Shown here: piece after piece, positions 10,671 through 17,963 of the stretch
Numbering within the stretch: the stretch's first letter is position 1
Layout: every line of letters starts with the position of its first letter
DNA from: Actinomycetota bacterium
Lineage (GTDB): Bacteria > Actinomycetota > Thermoleophilia > Gaiellales > Gaiellaceae
Direction: 5' to 3'
NCBI GenBank assembly: GCA_019237315.1
Contig: JAFAHG010000054.1
Span: forward strand, 1-32,369
DNA length: 32,369 bases
Translations under genes and position numbers: made by a program
The notes under the pieces: model-generated
Databases searched by the model: none
Told to the model about the DNA's origin: nothing
The model's input: only the letters and a program-made list of their open reading frames with translations

Positions 10671-10793
10671 AGCCGGCGCGCCTGCAACGCAGACGCGGCT
10701 ATACCCGGTTCTACTCAGAAGAAACCCGGGCTAAAGCTGAGTAATTCTGTCATATTCTGTAAAGGACCTTGTCGAAGTCGATGCATTTGCGTC
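10671..10793. promoter_or_regulatory. divergent promoter region of the signalling operon
   Basis: This spacer is clearly richer in A/T than its surroundings. ATTCTGT occurs twice, 10 bp apart (10744-10750 and 10754-10760), and the interval contains a TANNNT hexamer (TATTCT, 10753-10758) suited as the -10 of the kinase operon. An imperfect dyad with CCCGG arms lies around 10704-10730. No Shine-Dalgarno precedes the ATG at 10794. Confidence 0.4.
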
Positions 10794-11558
10794 ATGACAG
10801 ACACAAGCGTCCACGTTACCTTGTGGCAAAGGCAGGTCTACCTCGTTCGCCCAGTGACCTTCGTCCGACACCGCATCCCCGCGGCGCCGCGTGCCGGCGC
10901 GTCCTCGGAACAGGACGTGCTCGCGCGTGCGCTTGCGCACGAGCTCCGTGGGGCGCTCGGGTCGCTCGACGGATTCCTGCGCGTGCTCGAGCGAGGTCAC
11001 GCCGCCGAGCTGAGCCCGGAAGCCCGCCGCTTCATCGGCCTCGCGCGCAGCTCTGCGCACGAGATGAGCCGGGTCCTCGCAGCGCTCACCGACTTCACCC
11101 GCCTCGGAAGCCACGAGCTCCGCCCGGTCGACATCGACGTCGACGAGCTCGTCGAGTGCGTCGTCGGCGACTTTGCCGAAGCCATCGACGAGGCGGGCAC
11201 GGAGATGCGGCTCGGGCACTTGCCGCGATGCACGGCCGACCCGGTCCTTCTCGAGCGCGTGTTCTCGAACCTCGTCTCGAACGCGATCAGGTTCTCGCGG
11301 GACTCGGACATGCCCGTCGTCGAGATCGGGGCCGACGACGACGCGTTCTTCGTGCGCGACAACGGGGTCGGCTTCGACCCTGCCGAGGCGCCCAGGCTGT
11401 TCGGGATGTTCCAGCGTCTTCATGCAGGTGGGGGCGTCGGCGCGGGGCTCGCCATCGCGCGGCGGATCGTCGAGCGCCACGGCGGCCGCATGTGGGCCGA
11501 GGGCGTCCTCGGCGGGGGCGCGACGTTCTGGTTCACGCTGCCGGGAGCGGCTTCGTGA
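10794..11558 (+). CDS. histidine kinase without sensor domain
   Basis: A 254-residue kinase. After about 35 unstructured residues comes a HisKA dimerisation helix with the phospho-acceptor H49 (LARALAHELRGALGSLDGF), then a HATPase with N-box VFSNLVSNAIRFS, G1 box RDNGVGFDP and G2 box GAGLAIARRIVERHGG. It has no transmembrane segment and no input domain, so it must sense through a partner protein or act as a cytosolic relay. ATG 10794 is chosen as the first start after the promoter-like spacer; GTG 10854 would also leave the kinase core intact. The stop overlaps the next gene (GTGA). Confidence 0.8.
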   Translation: MTDTSVHVTLWQRQVYLVRPVTFVRHRIPAAPRAGASSEQDVLARALAHELRGALGSLDGFLRVLERGHAAELSPEARRFIGLARSSAHEMSRVLAALTDFTRLGSHELRPVDIDVDELVECVVGDFAEAIDEAGTEMRLGHLPRCTADPVLLERVFSNLVSNAIRFSRDSDMPVVEIGADDDAFFVRDNGVGFDPAEAPRLFGMFQRLHAGGGVGAGLAIARRIVERHGGRMWAEGVLGGGATFWFTLPGAAS

Positions 11559-14539
11559 ACATGCCGATCCGCGTCCTCGTCCTGGAGGACAAGCAGCTCC
11601 ACTACGAGGCACTCGTCAGCGAGCTCCGGCTCGGCGGCCTCGCGGTCGAAAGCCGGCACGCCGCGTCGGGCGGGGAGTTCACACGTGCGCTCGCGGAATC
11701 GTGGGACATCGTGCTCGCCGACTTCGTGCTACCCGGTTTCACCGCGCTCGATGCATTGCGCACGTTGAAGGAGCGCGAGATCGACACGCCGCTGATCGTC
11801 GTCTCGGGCACCATCGACGAGGAGTCGGCGCTGACCGTGTACCAGGGCGGCGCGCGCGACTTCGTCACGAAGGAACGGCTGGCGCGTCTCGTGCCGGCCG
11901 TCGTCCGCGAGCTCGAGGAAGCTGATACGCGCCGTGAGCGCCTCCGCGTCGAGCGAGAGCTCGAAAACAGCATCCGTCGGTTCGAGCTCACGCTCAGGCA
12001 GTTGCCCGGAATCTTCTGGACGACCGGCGTGGATCTCCGGATCGAGTCGGCGTTCGGCGGGGCGTTCGCGTCGCTCGCGCGGCCGGCGTCCGAGTACATC
12101 GGCGTGGCCGTGGAGGGCCCAGATTCGCCGTTCCCACCGGTCGTCGGCGAGGCCCATCGTCGCGCGCTTGCTGGGCAGGCCTCGCGCTACGAGCTCGCGT
12201 ACGAAGGGCGCGTCTACGACGCGTTCGTCCAGCCGATCCACGGCGAAAGCGGAGTCACGGGTGTCGTGGGCGTTTCTCTCGACGTGACGGAGCAGCGACA
12301 TGCGGAGGCGGAGGCGCGCCGAGCCGAGCGTGAGTTCGAGACGCTCGTCGAGAACTCGGACGACCTGATCCTCCGCGTCGACCGGGAGCTGCGCCTTCTG
12401 TACGTCAACGCGGCGACGGAGCAGGCGGTCGGGCGGAACCGGCACGATGTCCTCGGCCGGCAGATGGACGAGTACCTCTCGCCGCAGTCCCCCGCACTCC
12501 TGCGCGAGATGGTGCGCCAGATCGAGGAGTCGGGCGAGGGAAGGACCTTCGAGTTCGAGCACTCCGGACACGTCTTCCAGGCGCGGATCACGCCGGAGTT
12601 CGGCGACGAGGAAATCGAGTCGCTGCTCTTCGTCGCACGTGACGTCACCTCGCTCGTCGAGAAGGACCGCGAGCTGCGCACGAGCGAGGCGCACTATCGC
12701 GCGCTCGTCGAGGCGACGCTCGACGTCTTCAGCATCGTCGCAGCGGACGGCACGTTGCGGTACGCGGCGCCGTCCGTGGTCTCGACGATCGGCTACGCCG
12801 CCGACGAGCGCGTCGGTCGCAGCATCTTCGAGCACATCCACCCGGAGGATCGTGACGGCGTGGAGACGGCGTTCGCCCGCTGCGTCGCCCAACCAGGCAT
12901 GATCGCCAGGCTCGACTACCGGTATCGGCGTCGTGACGGCGTCTGGCGGCACCTCTCGACCCTGATCCGCAACCTCCTTGATGACGAGCTGGTCCAGGGA
13001 GTGGTCGCGAGTACCCGTGACGTGACCGAGCAGCGGGAGCGTGAGGCGCGCCTGCGCGAGAGCGAGAAACACTTCCGTTCGCTTTTCGACATGGCGGTGG
13101 ACGCGATCGTCCTCGCGGACGACCAGGGGCGCTGGATCGACGCGAATCCGGCCATGGAGCGGCTGGTAGGGCTTTCGCACGACGAGCTGCTCGGCATGTC
13201 CCCGGCTGACATCGTCGACGAGGCCGCGCGCGACTCGATATCGACCGCCTGGTCGACGTTCCTGCAGGAGGGTTCGATGACGGGTCAGTTCGAGCTCGTC
13301 CGTCCGGACGGGGAACGACGGTTCGTCGATTTCGCGGCCAAGGCCAACTTCGTGCCTGGACGGCACCTATCCATCATCCGCGACGTCAGCGAACGAAGGC
13401 GCCTCGAGGAGCAGCTCGTGCAGGCCCAGAAGATGGAGGCGGTCGGCCGGCTCGCGGGCGGCGTCGCGCACGACTTCAACAACCTCCTCCTCGTCATCCG
13501 CGGCTACGGCGACCTCCTTGCGAGCCGGTTCGCCGACGATCGCCAGGCGAGCGCCGACATCCGAGAGCTCCTCGACGCCGCCGATCGTGCAGCATCCCTG
13601 ACAGAACAGCTCCTCGCGTTCAGCCGGCGGCAGGTTGTCCAGCCGGTGACGATCTATCCGAACGAGGTCGTCGATGCGATGCGCAAGATGATCGGCCGGC
13701 TGATCGGCGAGGACATCGCGATGGTCACGGAGCTGGCAGAGCGCACGCCGCCCGTCTGCATAGACCGAGGGCAGCTCGAGCAGATTGTCATCAACCTTGC
13801 GGTGAACGCTCGCGACGCGATGCCGCACGGGGGTGTGCTGCGGATCGAAACCGCCGGGGTGTCGCCGTCCGACTCTGTCCTCGCGTCGCGCGGCCTTCAC
13901 GGTCGCGAGTTCCTTCGCCTCCGCGTCGGCGACAACGGCCTCGGAATGGATGCAGAGACCCTCGATCGCGCGTTCGAGCCGTTCTTCACGACGAAGCCGC
14001 CCGGCCTCGGAACGGGCCTCGGGCTTTCGACGGTCTACGGGTTGGTGCAGTCGGCCGGTGGGTTCGTGGAGGCACACAGCGTTGTCGGCCGAGGGACGAC
14101 CTTCGATGTCTACCTCCCGGCCGCCGAAGGCGGAGATGGATTCGCCGACGACGACGAGGAGGAATCGCCGCCGACTCTTCTCGGGACGGAGACGATCCTG
14201 CTCGTCGAGGACGAGGCGAAGGTGCGCTCGCTCGTCGAGCAGATGCTGAGCTCGTTCGGGTACTCGGTCGTCGCCTCGGAGAACGCGCGCGCCGCGGTCG
14301 ACCTCGCCCAGACGCTGCCGGTCGACCTGCTCCTCACGGACGTCGTGATGCCGGAGCTCGGCGGCGACGACGTCGCGGCGCTCGTCCGGCGGGCACGCCC
14401 CGACACACGCGTGCTGTTCATGTCCGGCTATCCCGATCGCGTCGCCGGACGCAAGATCGACGTCGAAGGGAACTTCATCAAGAAGCCCTTCTCGCGCGAC
14501 GAGCTCGCGCGCAAGGTCCGCGAGGTGCTCGACCGATGA
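11555..14539 (+). CDS. hybrid sensor kinase REC-PAS4-HisKA-HATPase-REC
   Basis: A 994-residue cytosolic hybrid kinase. Order: receiver (1-120, D56 in ADFVLPG, K106), coiled linker, four PAS domains (about 140-250, 255-370, 375-495, 500-620; linkers read DVTEQR, DVTSLV, DVTEQR, DVSERR), HisKA ([15 protein letters not shown]), HATPase ([30 protein letters not shown]) and a second receiver at the C-terminus ([19 protein letters not shown]). Receivers at both ends suggest it takes a phosphate from the upstream kinase and passes one on. GTG 11555 is preferred (GGGAG about 8 nt upstream, GTGA overlap); ATG 11561 is the alternative. The apparent continuation of the frame upstream to 10769 is a shadow of the preceding kinase. 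Confidence 0.88.
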
Positions 14540-15546
14540 GCGCGACCGCGTCGGTCCTCGTCGTCGACGACGAGGCGGGGATCCGCCGTCTCCTTCGTTC
14601 GGTGCTGCAGCGTGCCGGGTACGCGACCACGGAGGCTCCGACAGCGCAGGCCGCCGAGGACGCGCTCGAGGAGAACGCGTACGACGTCGCGCTCGTCGAC
14701 GTGCTTCTCGGCCACGCATCGGGTCTCGCTCTTGCGGCGCGGGTCGAGGAGGGGAGGCCCGACACCGCCGTCGTCATGATGAGCGGCGCCGACGATCCCG
14801 GCTCGCAGTCAGCGGCGATCGACGCAGGCGCGTACGGATTCCTGCTCAAGCCGTTCAGCAACAGCGAGCTGCTGATCGCGGTGAAGAACGCCTTGCGCCG
14901 GCGCGACCTCGAGCAGGCTCATCGCCGGCGCGAGGCCGAGCTCGCGGAAGCCGTCGCCGCACGCACGGCCGAGCTGGTGCAGTCGCGCGAGGAGACGATC
15001 CTTCGGCTCGCCGCAGCGGCCGAGGCGCACGACCCGGACGCGCGCGGGCATCTCGACCGCGTCGGTGAGCTGTCCCGCGCGCTTGCACACGAGCTCGCCC
15101 TTGGGTCGGAGCGCGAGGGCGTGCTTCGGCTCGCGAGCATGCTCCACGACGTCGGGAAGATCGCGGTGCCGCAGGACCTGCTGAGGAAGCCGGGGCCGCT
15201 GACCCCCGACGAGCGCGCGCTCGTCGAGCGGCACACGACCGAGGGTCACCGCATCCTTTCCGGGACGCACCAGGACGTCCTGGAGACGGCAGCGATGGTC
15301 GCGCTCACCCACCACGAGCGGCTCGACGGCTCCGGCTACCCGAACGGGCTCGTGGGCGAGGCCATTCCGCTCGAAGGGCGGATCGTCGCCGTCGCCGACG
15401 TCTTCGACGCGCTGACGAGCACGCGCGCATACCGCGGCGCGCTCTCCTGGCCGGCAGCGCTCTCGTACGTTCGCGCATCGGCGGGAACGCTGTTCGACGA
15501 CGCGATCGTCGAGGCGCTCGTGCGCGTCTGCGAGGCCCTCGCATGA
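14536..15546 (+). CDS. response regulator with HD-GYP domain (c-di-GMP phosphodiesterase)
   Basis: A 336-residue protein: receiver (1-120; acceptor Asp in ALVDVLLGHASG, Lys in FLLKPFS), coiled linker, and an HD-GYP domain from about residue 155. The metal and signature motifs are intact: MLHDVGKIAVP, HTTEGHRIL, HHERLDGSGYPNGL and VADVFDALTS. HD-GYP proteins hydrolyse cyclic di-GMP, so the operon probably connects phospho-signalling to a c-di-GMP output. ATG overlaps the hybrid kinase stop (ATGA), indicating coupled translation. Confidence 0.9.
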   Translation: MSATASVLVVDDEAGIRRLLRSVLQRAGYATTEAPTAQAAEDALEENAYDVALVDVLLGHASGLALAARVEEGRPDTAVVMMSGADDPGSQSAAIDAGAYGFLLKPFSNSELLIAVKNALRRRDLEQAHRRREAELAEAVAARTAELVQSREETILRLAAAAEAHDPDARGHLDRVGELSRALAHELALGSEREGVLRLASMLHDVGKIAVPQDLLRKPGPLTPDERALVERHTTEGHRILSGTHQDVLETAAMVALTHHERLDGSGYPNGLVGEAIPLEGRIVAVADVFDALTSTRAYRGALSWPAALSYVRASAGTLFDDAIVEALVRVCEALA

Positions 15547-16151
15547 CGAACTGCCTGATCGCGGACGACCATCCGCCGATCCTCGCTGCGCTCTCGCGAT
15601 ACCTGCCCGAGCACGGGTTCGAGATCGTCGGGACGGCGTCGACCGGCGAAGAGGCGGTCGAGAAGCTCGAGCGCATGCGGCCGCCGGTCGCGCTCGTCGA
15701 CATGCGGATGCCCGGGCTCGACGGGCTCGAGGTCGTGCGCCGCGTCGTCTTGTCGTCGGCGGGGACGGCGCTCATCGTCTACACCGGTGCCGCCGGCCAG
15801 GCCGATCTGCAGGCGGCGCTCGACGCCGGTGCGCGCGGGTTCGTCATGAAGGAAGCGCCGCTGCCCGATCTCGTCCGCGCGCTGCAGACCGCCGAGCGAG
15901 GCGGCGTCTACGTCGATCCCGTCCTCGCCGGGCTTGCGACGACGCACGACCGCTCTCCGACGTTGACCGCGCGTGAGCGGGACGTCCTGCGCCTCCTCGC
16001 CGACGGGTGCTCGAACGAGGAGATCGGGCGCAAGCTCTTCATCTCGCCGGAGACGGTGCGCGCCCACGTTGCGAAGGCATGCCGGAAGCTCGGGGCACGT
16101 ACGCGCACGCAGGCTGTTGCGACGGCGTTGCGGCTCGCGCTGATCGCGTAG
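15543..16151 (+). CDS. NarL/LuxR-family response regulator
   Basis: A 202-residue two-domain regulator. Receiver (1-120): acidic pair in IADDHPP, acceptor Asp in ALVDMRMPGLDG, conserved Lys in GFVMKEAP. The C-terminal LuxR helix-turn-helix (about 140-200) reads LTARERDVLRLLADGCSNEE then SPETVRAHVAKACRKLGART. It is the transcriptional output of the signalling operon and is joined to the HD-GYP gene by an ATGA overlap. Its targets are not evident. Confidence 0.9.
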   Translation: MTNCLIADDHPPILAALSRYLPEHGFEIVGTASTGEEAVEKLERMRPPVALVDMRMPGLDGLEVVRRVVLSSAGTALIVYTGAAGQADLQAALDAGARGFVMKEAPLPDLVRALQTAERGGVYVDPVLAGLATTHDRSPTLTARERDVLRLLADGCSNEEIGRKLFISPETVRAHVAKACRKLGARTRTQAVATALRLALIA

Positions 16152-16179: not shown

Positions 16180-16222
16180 CTTCGGGACGTGTCCGGGGTC
16201 TGACCCCGGACACGTCCCGAAG
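16180..16222. repeat. perfect 20-bp palindrome, REP-like
   Basis: Arms 16180-16199 and 16203-16222 are exact reverse complements with a 3-nt loop; the core reads GGGGTCTGACCCC. It lies between convergent genes 29 nt after the NarL regulator stop. There is no T-tract. A bidirectional transcription end point is possible, but the GGGGTCTGACCCC core is reminiscent of dispersed REP-type palindromes. It occurs once in this window. Confidence 0.7.
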
Positions 16223-16251: not shown

Positions 16252-16356
16252 CTAGAGGCCGCTGTAGAAACCGAGCGGCCGGACCTTCGCGAGCCCGGAC
16301 GCAGCGAGCAGCAGGAGCGCCAGCAGCGGCAGCACACGAACGTAGGCGGTGCGCAA
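16252..16356 (-). CDS. 34-aa exported or membrane peptide downstream of the TPR gene
   Basis: A short reading frame with TTG start at 16356. An ideal Shine-Dalgarno (AAGGAGGTGA on the minus strand, 16362-16371) lies 5 nt upstream of the start, the strongest ribosome site in the window. The peptide has a basic N-terminus (MRTAYVR), a hydrophobic core (VLPLLALLLLAASGLA) and an 11-residue tail KVRPLGFYSGL. A signal peptidase site after GLA is plausible and would release the tail; otherwise it is a single-span membrane peptide. It starts 21 nt after the TPR gene stop, so it is co-transcribed. The layout recalls Bacillus Rap-Phr pairs (TPR protein plus exported peptide); homology is not claimed. 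Confidence 0.7.
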   Translation of the reverse strand: MRTAYVRVLPLLALLLLAASGLAKVRPLGFYSGL

Positions 16357-16377
16357 TCCTCTCACCTCCTTCCGTCG

Positions 16378-17382
16378 TCAGAAGTGGACGTCCTGGAGCG
16401 CCTCCGCGGCGCGCCGGTACAGGTCGGCTGCACGTGTCTCGTCGCCCGCAGCCCGTGCGACGTCGCCGCCGACGAGCCACGCGGCGGCGAGGTGGCTGTC
16501 CGATCCGAAGTCGCGGAGCGCGTCCTCCGCGCGCCGGAACGCCGCGTCGGCTTCCGGGACACGCGCGAGCGCCGCGAACGCGCGCGCGAGGACGAGGTTC
16601 GCACTCGCGACTTCGTTCGCATGGTCGACGCGGCCGTCGAGCTGGTCGAGCGCGTCGTGTGCGTCGACGATCGCGCCGGCCGCATCACCTGTCCGCAGGC
16701 GAAGCTGCGCGAGCGATGAGAGCGCGTAGCCGATGTCCAGGCGGCTCTCGCCCTCGCGCGCGATCGCGAGGGCGTCTTCGAGGCATTCCGTCGCCCGCAC
16801 GCCGTCGCCGAGGAGAAAGTGGATGCCGCCGAGGTTGTTCAGCACCTTGCCGAGTGCTGCGAGGTCGCCGGTCTCGGTGAGCAGGTCGCGGGCCTGTTCG
16901 GCGTAGTACCGCGCAACGAGCCACTGGCGCTCGCGCTCGGCGACGATCGACGCCTGGAACAGGACGCGTGCCGTTCGGAGCGGGTCGCCGAGCGCCTGCG
17001 CGAGCTCGACGGCGCGCTCGACGTCCGCACGCGCGGCTTCCCAGTCGCGCTGGCGCTGGTAGCAGCGTGCCCGCCAGTCGAGGATCTCGACACGAAGCGC
17101 ATCCGGTGCGAGCACCGAGCGGTCGCAGAGGTCGAGCGCGAGCGTGAGCAACGAGGCTGCGTTCGCGACCGAGCCCACGGCCAGCCGGCAGCGGCCGAGC
17201 CGAAAGAAGACTGCGGCGCGGTCGGCGTCGCCGAACGACGGCCCCTCGGTGAGGATGCGTGCGCGCTCGACCGCTGCGAGCGCGTGGCCGGTATTCCCTG
17301 CGTCGAGCTCGGCATCCGCTTCGGCGAGGAGTGCGTCGAGCACCCGCGGGCTCGCGGGCGCCTCGGCGAGGTACGCGGTCAT
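16378..17382 (-). CDS. tetratricopeptide repeat protein
   Basis: A 334-residue all-helical protein made almost wholly of TPR units, for example RAAVFFRLGRCRLAVGSVAN, KVLNNLGGIHFLLGDGVRAT, GYALSSLAQLRLRTGDAAGA and HLAAAWLVGGDVARAAGDET. No DNA-binding, ATPase or membrane domain is present, so it should act as a cytosolic binding protein. The ATG at 17382 overlaps the stop of the upstream membrane-protein gene (ATGA); an in-frame extension further upstream exists but would run through that gene. It is followed after 21 nt by the 34-aa peptide gene, which may encode its ligand. Confidence 0.8.
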   Translation of the reverse strand: MTAYLAEAPASPRVLDALLAEADAELDAGNTGHALAAVERARILTEGPSFGDADRAAVFFRLGRCRLAVGSVANAASLLTLALDLCDRSVLAPDALRVEILDWRARCYQRQRDWEAARADVERAVELAQALGDPLRTARVLFQASIVAERERQWLVARYYAEQARDLLTETGDLAALGKVLNNLGGIHFLLGDGVRATECLEDALAIAREGESRLDIGYALSSLAQLRLRTGDAAGAIVDAHDALDQLDGRVDHANEVASANLVLARAFAALARVPEADAAFRRAEDALRDFGSDSHLAAAWLVGGDVARAAGDETRAADLYRRAAEALQDVHF

Positions 17383-17963
17383 GCCCGCTCGAGCGCGACC
17401 GTCACGACGCCTTGCAGGTCGGCCGTCCGGAGTGCAGCGCCGGTGGAGCAGGTCGCAGCGCCCGAGAGGAGCGTGCGGCATGGGAAGGTGTGCGGTTCGC
17501 GTGCGTCATCGGTGCGGAGCACGGCCACGATGCGGGCGGACGAGAGACGCCGCTGCGGCCGGAAGCTGAGTGCGTCGACGACGCCGGGGCGGGAGGAGTC
17601 GAGGCGGACCGTGAGCGGGAGCTGCGCCGCGGCGCTTCCGGGTACGAGGACGTATGCGGGCACCGAGGTGAGGAGCCGCGCAGGCGCGACGTCGCTGAAT
17701 GTCTGCGGCGCGCCGGCCGTCGCGTGCCGGCTGGTGAGCGGCGTGAGCGGCAGCGTCCTCGGCGCGGCGTACGCGCTCTGGCCGACGCCGGCGGCGCCGA
17801 GCAGGATCCCGGCGCCCGTGATCGCCGCGGCGACGACGAGCACCGGCCGACCGAGCGAGTGGAGTGCCGCCGCCGGGGCGGCTCCCGGCGGCGGCGTCTT
17901 CCCTGCGGCATGTGCGGAGTGGGGCACGGCGAAATCTTCGGCCTTCCCGGCCGCCGCCGACAT
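17379..17963 (-). CDS. single-pass membrane protein, unknown function
   Basis: A 194-residue protein with a short Ala/Pro-rich cytosolic N-terminus, one hydrophobic segment at about residues 40-65 (PVLVVAAAITGAGILLGAAG) and an exported domain of about 125 residues with two cysteines (FPCRTLL, ATCSTG) that may form a disulfide. No family is recognised. The N-terminal start is uncertain, since no good Shine-Dalgarno precedes the ATG at 17963. It heads the operon membrane protein - TPR protein - peptide, an arrangement that would suit surface sensing or peptide processing. Confidence 0.65.
   Translation of the reverse strand: MSAAAGKAEDFAVPHSAHAAGKTPPPGAAPAAALHSLGRPVLVVAAAITGAGILLGAAGVGQSAYAAPRTLPLTPLTSRHATAGAPQTFSDVAPARLLTSVPAYVLVPGSAAAQLPLTVRLDSSRPGVVDALSFRPQRRLSSARIVAVLRTDDAREPHTFPCRTLLSGAATCSTGAALRTADLQGVVTVALERA

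Follow-up and report, generated by a model that had tools for sequence, protein, structure and literature searches.

A TPR protein and its downstream propeptide gene in Gaiellaceae as a probable RRNPP-like peptide-signalling pair

Firmicutes are known to use peptide quorum sensing that works through cytoplasmic TPR receptors. In the Rap-Phr systems of Bacillus, RapF blocks the NarL-type response regulator ComA, whose DNA-binding domain it covers, and PhrF lifts this block (PMC3246441). A conserved asparagine in the TPR groove of RapF, Asn227, grips the peptide backbone (PMC3601957). Rap proteins arose by the loss of an HTH (PMC12700828), and the Bacillus phages phi3T and phi105 encode tandem Phr propeptides with several pheromone copies per precursor (PMC11343458). 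The signature used by RRNPP_detector comprises a receptor of 250–500 aa with TPRs and a propeptide of 10–100 aa, located within −60 to 400 bp and carrying a Sec signal; the corresponding large survey covered Firmicutes and viruses only and calls the signals of Actinomycetota typically small molecules (PMC10075063). In the literature outside subscription journals and preprints, we found no description of an RRNPP-type system in Actinobacteria, Streptomyces or Gaiella, in agreement with an earlier, sequence-only reading of the locus analysed here, which had suggested that it could be undescribed.

The window, the whole stretch of 32,369 nucleotides from a Gaiellaceae contig (JAFAHG010000054.1) that was analysed, encodes a receptor candidate of 334 aa containing TPRs, and a propeptide of 34 aa begins 21 nt past its stop codon. 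The pair fits the above signature in the length and TPR content of the receptor and in the length and position of the propeptide, and RRNPP-like signalling is the best explanation for how it works. We consider it quite probable that the TPR receptor and its own exported peptide ligand constitute a peptide-signalling module of Gaiellaceae operating like the RRNPP systems of Firmicutes. The sequence-only reading had proposed such a unit, and the conserved gene pair, the tail motif and the receptor–peptide co-evolution described below argue in its favour.

The gene pair and conservation of the small peptide gene

The features of the pair and its immediate surroundings are as follows.
17379–17963, minus strand: one-pass membrane protein of 194 aa, overlapping the TPR start by 4 nt
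16378–17382, minus strand: TPR receptor candidate of 334 aa without an HTH, assigned from Pfam, homology and an AF2 model
17182–17184, minus strand: codon of receptor Leu67, equivalent to position 162 of the L031 receptor (specificity position)
16834–16839, minus strand: codons of receptor Asn182–Asn183 (LNNLGG), nearly invariant; candidate peptide-backbone contact by analogy to RapF Asn227 (PMC3601957)
16362–16371, minus strand: Shine-Dalgarno AAGGAGGTGA of the propeptide gene, the sole perfect match in the window
16252–16356, minus strand: propeptide gene of 34 aa with a TTG start at 16356 and a stop at 16252, reading (M/L)RTAYVRVLPLLALLLLAASGLAKVRPLGFYSGL; assigned because homologous loci have a frame in the same place with the same kind of tail motif
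16255–16287, minus strand: C-terminal 11 codons KVRPLGFYSGL, in which GFYSGL fits the tail motif GF[SFY][STN]G of the family
16180–16222, no strand: palindrome (19-nt arms, 5-nt loop) in the gap that separates the peptide gene from the convergent response-regulator gene, a possible two-way terminator

The 34-aa gene, singled out earlier for having the best Shine-Dalgarno in the window, is real, and its tail reads as originally stated. Three matches to AAGGAGGTGA with one mismatch occur in the window, against 0.77 expected. Among the reading frames of the window, an alternative upstream GTG at 16365 would yield a propeptide of 37 aa. The upstream membrane protein had been regarded as the leading gene of the operon; it is present and overlaps the TPR start, but no homologue was found in 60 other related genomes (1/61, the window's own). 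The protein is therefore an orphan outside the conserved unit and was rejected as part of it.

A small frame was defined by a Shine-Dalgarno, a hydrophobic stretch, a length of 18–75 aa and a distance of at most 120 nt from the TPR stop. Such a frame after homologous TPR genes had been proposed as a check on the initial reading, which its lack of conservation would have refuted. It was found behind 84 of the 93 copies with enough downstream DNA, and the reading passed this check; among the other gene ends of these loci, 20 of 1039 had one. In several of the nine misses, the peptide is still encoded, at a greater distance or behind a poorer ribosome site (L034, L055, L141 and L100). Downstream of the HTH-less copies L168 and L176/L185, no recognisable peptide gene was found. 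A close orthologue of the window's own peptide was likewise not found, and its support comes from relatives with 43–49% TPR identity. The short frame, its TTG start and the plentiful chance frames of GC-rich genomes would suit a spurious ORF or a mere translation-coupling element. This explanation is already contradicted: the control counts rule out a chance frame or artefact, and dN/dS is below 1 in nearly all close peptide pairs listed (e.g. 0.08, 0.10 and 0.34). In addition, the protein motif is kept in differing nucleotide contexts and co-evolves with the receptor, leaving the spurious-ORF explanation scarcely credible.

All 91 collected peptides carry Lys or Arg ahead of a hydrophobic core with a median hydropathy of 2.86, in line with the signal-like N-terminus initially noted for the window peptide, and Sec export of the propeptide is likely on these sequence features. 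What the peptides conserve is the tail, with the short motif G-(F/M)-x-(D/S/T)-G, which co-varies with a receptor residue; the tail conservation proposed for testing at the outset was observed for this motif. Of the 81 peptides that were not placed in the HTH-less set, 67 have the dipeptide DG in the tail. It is found in the tail of none of the 10 HTH-less ones and is absent from the first 18 aa of all 91 peptides. Five precursors (L113, L119, L120, L139 and L053) contain tandem motif repeats with three to five copies of [MFA]xDG, for example SMFDGGSAFDGGSMFDGG in L113 and a fourfold (A)GM(H/Q)DGHG in L053.

The receptor family and its co-evolution with the peptide tail

TPR homologues are present in 29 of 41 related genomes, with the full-length ones approximately 40–51% identical to the window protein. 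A profile search detected the family in 92 of 103 Gaiellaceae genomes and in 83 of 299 genomes of the class Thermoleophilia, to which the matches were confined in a phylum-wide sample. Most homologues consist of an N-terminal XRE-type HTH (HTH_31, HTH_3) followed by TPRs, with about 430 aa from the HTH on, and one such paralogue is encoded in the window's own genome (G000:C181:10302-11588). The wider family is one of XRE-HTH and TPR regulators with a peptide, and the window copy is an HTH-less, Rap-like derivative. Two distant homologues from another family of the class (L098 and L099) possess the HTH-TPR architecture and lack the peptide frame. In a second family of the order, the HTH-TPR and peptide pair is found with the differing tails GFHEW or GFHQW (L061, L062, L173, L174 and L178).

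As had been read from the sequence, the window receptor is a pure TPR protein: Pfam assigns TPR_12 (1.7e-19) and TPR_2 and no other domain. Its AF2 model forms a TPR superhelix of eight helical hairpins, with block pLDDT mostly 93–98, and the model of the HTH-type paralogue comprises an HTH plus a TPR superhelix. The window model opens directly with paired TPR-like helices and has no Rap-type N-terminal three-helix bundle, and so the receptor is not a Rap. For the window protein, the top bacterial PDB fold matches are RapJ-CSF, RapF-ComA, RapI and RapH, and for the paralogue the top one is PlcR-PapR-DNA, with eukaryotic LGN outscoring the bacterial matches in both searches. Profile matches to RapJ (8.9e-7) and RapH (2e-5) are likewise exceeded by those to LGN and designed TPRs. 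The modelled fold agrees with a peptide receptor; it is not diagnostic of one and is no proof of kinship to Rap. An hhalign alignment to the Rap of pLS20 places an Asn at LNNLGG with 29% probability and an E-value of 6e-4, such an Asn being common among TPRs. When AF2 was given the receptor as one chain continued past its stop codon into the peptide, which lies in the same frame, the receptor folded well and the tail remained unplaced (pLDDT <50), a prediction that lends no support to peptide docking either way.

Receptor and peptide sequences indicate co-evolution at a predicted groove residue. Tyr162 (L031 numbering), which is position 12 of helix A in the TPR sequence register and is predicted to line the concave groove, tracks the Asp of the tail, and Phe, Val, Leu or His occupies this column where the Asp is replaced by Gly, Glu, Ser or Asn or is absent. 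On the receptor tree, Asp is lost or gained seven times, and six of these events share a branch with a change in column 162 (p = 9.6e-8), while the runner-up among 330 receptor columns reached p = 0.013. With column 162 omitted from the tree, five of seven events still coincide (p = 1.3e-5), and the result was unchanged under three rootings. The switch is visible among close relatives: L127 with Tyr and GHFDGR versus its sister L036 with Phe and GHFGGR, and L144 (Tyr, SDGG) versus L145 (Phe, SNGG) and L148 (Val, SSGG). Further sister or near pairs with a switch are L117 and L151, and the L079 group and L090. Exceptions to the Tyr–Asp pairing occur in both directions (L123, L062 and L174; L116, L034 and L112). 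The window copy combines Leu at the equivalent position with Ser in the tail, as do the other HTH-less members. Peptide binding by the TPR domain is indirectly supported by this co-evolution.

These data also bear on whether the small frame encodes a toxin, a RiPP precursor or another bioactive peptide, with the TPR/XRE protein as its regulator or immunity factor. Toxin and RiPP loci also show small hydrophobic peptides beside XRE regulators, and HaaT, a TPR protein involved in RiPP biosynthesis, is weakly similar to the TPR part, at a score far below its NCBIfam cut-off. However, a specificity switch between tail and receptor would be unexpected for a toxin, the conserved part of the peptide is the short tail and not the membrane segment, and the neighbourhoods of the HTH-less copies examined showed neither modification genes nor export genes. 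We judge this alternative to be very improbable.

The HTH-less branch, its two-component neighbours and the upstream elements of HTH-type genes

The HTH-less copies cluster together in a large tree (91/87), in which a single HTH loss is likely. In a small tree with more members, they are split among three lineages, which allows one or more losses. Two of the lineages, including that of the window, sit in two-component clusters. In the window, the cluster comprises the following genes.
15543–16151, plus strand: REC-LuxR (NarL-type) response regulator (Pfam Response_reg and GerE), convergent with the TPR-peptide pair; candidate target
14536–15546, plus strand: REC-HD (HD_5) response regulator
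10769–14539, plus strand: PAS hybrid histidine kinase, with an uncertain start codon

Relatives of the REC-LuxR protein with 48–55% identity lie within 5 kb of five other HTH-less TPR genes of the window's type, and relatives of the REC-HD protein and the PAS kinase are often beside these five genes as well. Each of the six genes of this kind thus has a response regulator no more than 5 kb away, for which a simple random-placement model gives a chance of about 1e-12. The peptide tails in these response-regulator-linked loci are GGFSSGN, YGFSTGN, FGFSTGA and LGFSSGN, with LGFYSGL in the window, while one copy (L176/L185) has none. On the basis of this gene neighbourhood, the REC-LuxR protein is the most likely candidate target of the window TPR protein. 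The third HTH-less lineage (L170, L166, L168, L169, L175, L171 and L177), from the window's genus, is flanked by an mdh/icd-like gene for malate/isocitrate dehydrogenase and, where covered, by citrate-synthase-like genes, as judged by reading.

Upstream of HTH-TPR genes, an operator-like direct repeat, GTCAAGTN6GTCAAGTGA, was observed (for example in L031:3450-3699; L131:2563-2812, minus strand; G000:C181:11750-11771), and it overlaps the −35 of the divergent promoter. The core GTCAAGN7GTCAAG is present in 45 of 74 upstream regions. A search of 25 genomes showed at most one such site per genome, located where present at the HTH-TPR gene's own divergent promoter, and no wide set of sites was seen. 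Approximately 50–245 nt from the operator lies a conserved small-RNA-like element (alignment A3), consisting of a GGCTGGGCCGCAGAGCC hairpin and a terminator with a GCCGCAG loop. The alignment of 27 sequences contains six pairs with compensatory changes, and an Rfam scan covering some of these loci returned no family at the gathering threshold, with weak, chance-level matches of E up to 10. The element may represent the output of the HTH-type receptor.

Proposed mechanism and comparison with known systems

In the proposed mechanism, the propeptide would exit through Sec and be processed to a short peptide from its C-terminal end, around GFYSGL, which would re-enter the cell via an oligopeptide importer and bind in the concave TPR groove of the receptor. 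At the window locus, the free receptor would restrain the response regulator at 15543–16151, as RapF does ComA, and the imported peptide would free the regulator. The same peptide might instead act as a TPR ligand inside the producer or at the membrane, as a built-in inhibitor or tether, with no export or re-import. Co-evolution requires binding alone, the hydrophobic stretch could serve as a membrane anchor, and the locus lacks a linked importer. On the other hand, the Lys/Arg n-region and hydrophobic core recur in every collected peptide, the window's genome encodes two SBP_bac_5 proteins, and the tandem tail repeats suit a precursor from which several mature peptides are released, like the duplicated Phr propeptides (PMC11343458). 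We therefore regard a purely intracellular or membrane-bound ligand as unlikely and favour export followed by re-import.

With somewhat less confidence, we also lean towards a broader proposal: receptor–propeptide signalling would extend across this whole actinomycetotal family with its own motif code, in which the groove Tyr reads the tail Asp, and HTH loss would have produced a Rap-like class joined to NarL-type regulators, parallel to RapF-ComA in Bacillus. If true, a conserved pair in nearly every sampled genome of the Gaiellaceae, soil bacteria represented in the sample mostly by metagenome assemblies, would extend the TPR-peptide mechanism to another phylum. With the co-evolving Tyr–Asp pair, short synthetic peptides would allow a direct test of specificity. 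The HTH-less copies would be a second example of the possible conversion of a transcription factor into an inhibitor of two-component regulators.

Among the known systems, PlcR-PapR and NprR-NprX combine an HTH with TPRs, and they resemble the rest of the Gaiellaceae family, with its XRE-HTH, TPRs and downstream propeptide, rather than the copy in the window, which lacks the HTH. The likeness includes the fold, with PlcR-PapR-DNA as the top bacterial match for the HTH-type protein. In contrast to these systems, the operator-like repeat is limited to no more than one copy per genome, at the gene's own divergent promoter and beside the small-RNA-like element. The precursors with several motif copies are comparable to the tandem Phr propeptides of phi3T and phi105, although the Gaiellaceae repeats are built on [MFA]xDG.

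The window pair differs from Rap-Phr in belonging to Actinomycetota instead of Bacillota, in replacing the three-helix bundle with eight TPR-like hairpins, in the GF[SFY][STN]G tail motif and in the response regulator encoded next door; by sequence, it is no closer to Rap than it is to other TPR proteins. Nevertheless, it shares with Rap-Phr a TPR receptor without a DNA-binding domain, a short secreted-type propeptide directly downstream with a predicted C-terminal active part, and an origin through HTH loss, as reported for Rap (PMC12700828) and suggested by the trees for the window family. Rap proteins are also its best bacterial fold matches, and its likely target, a NarL/LuxR-type response regulator, corresponds to that of RapF in the RapF-PhrF/ComA system.
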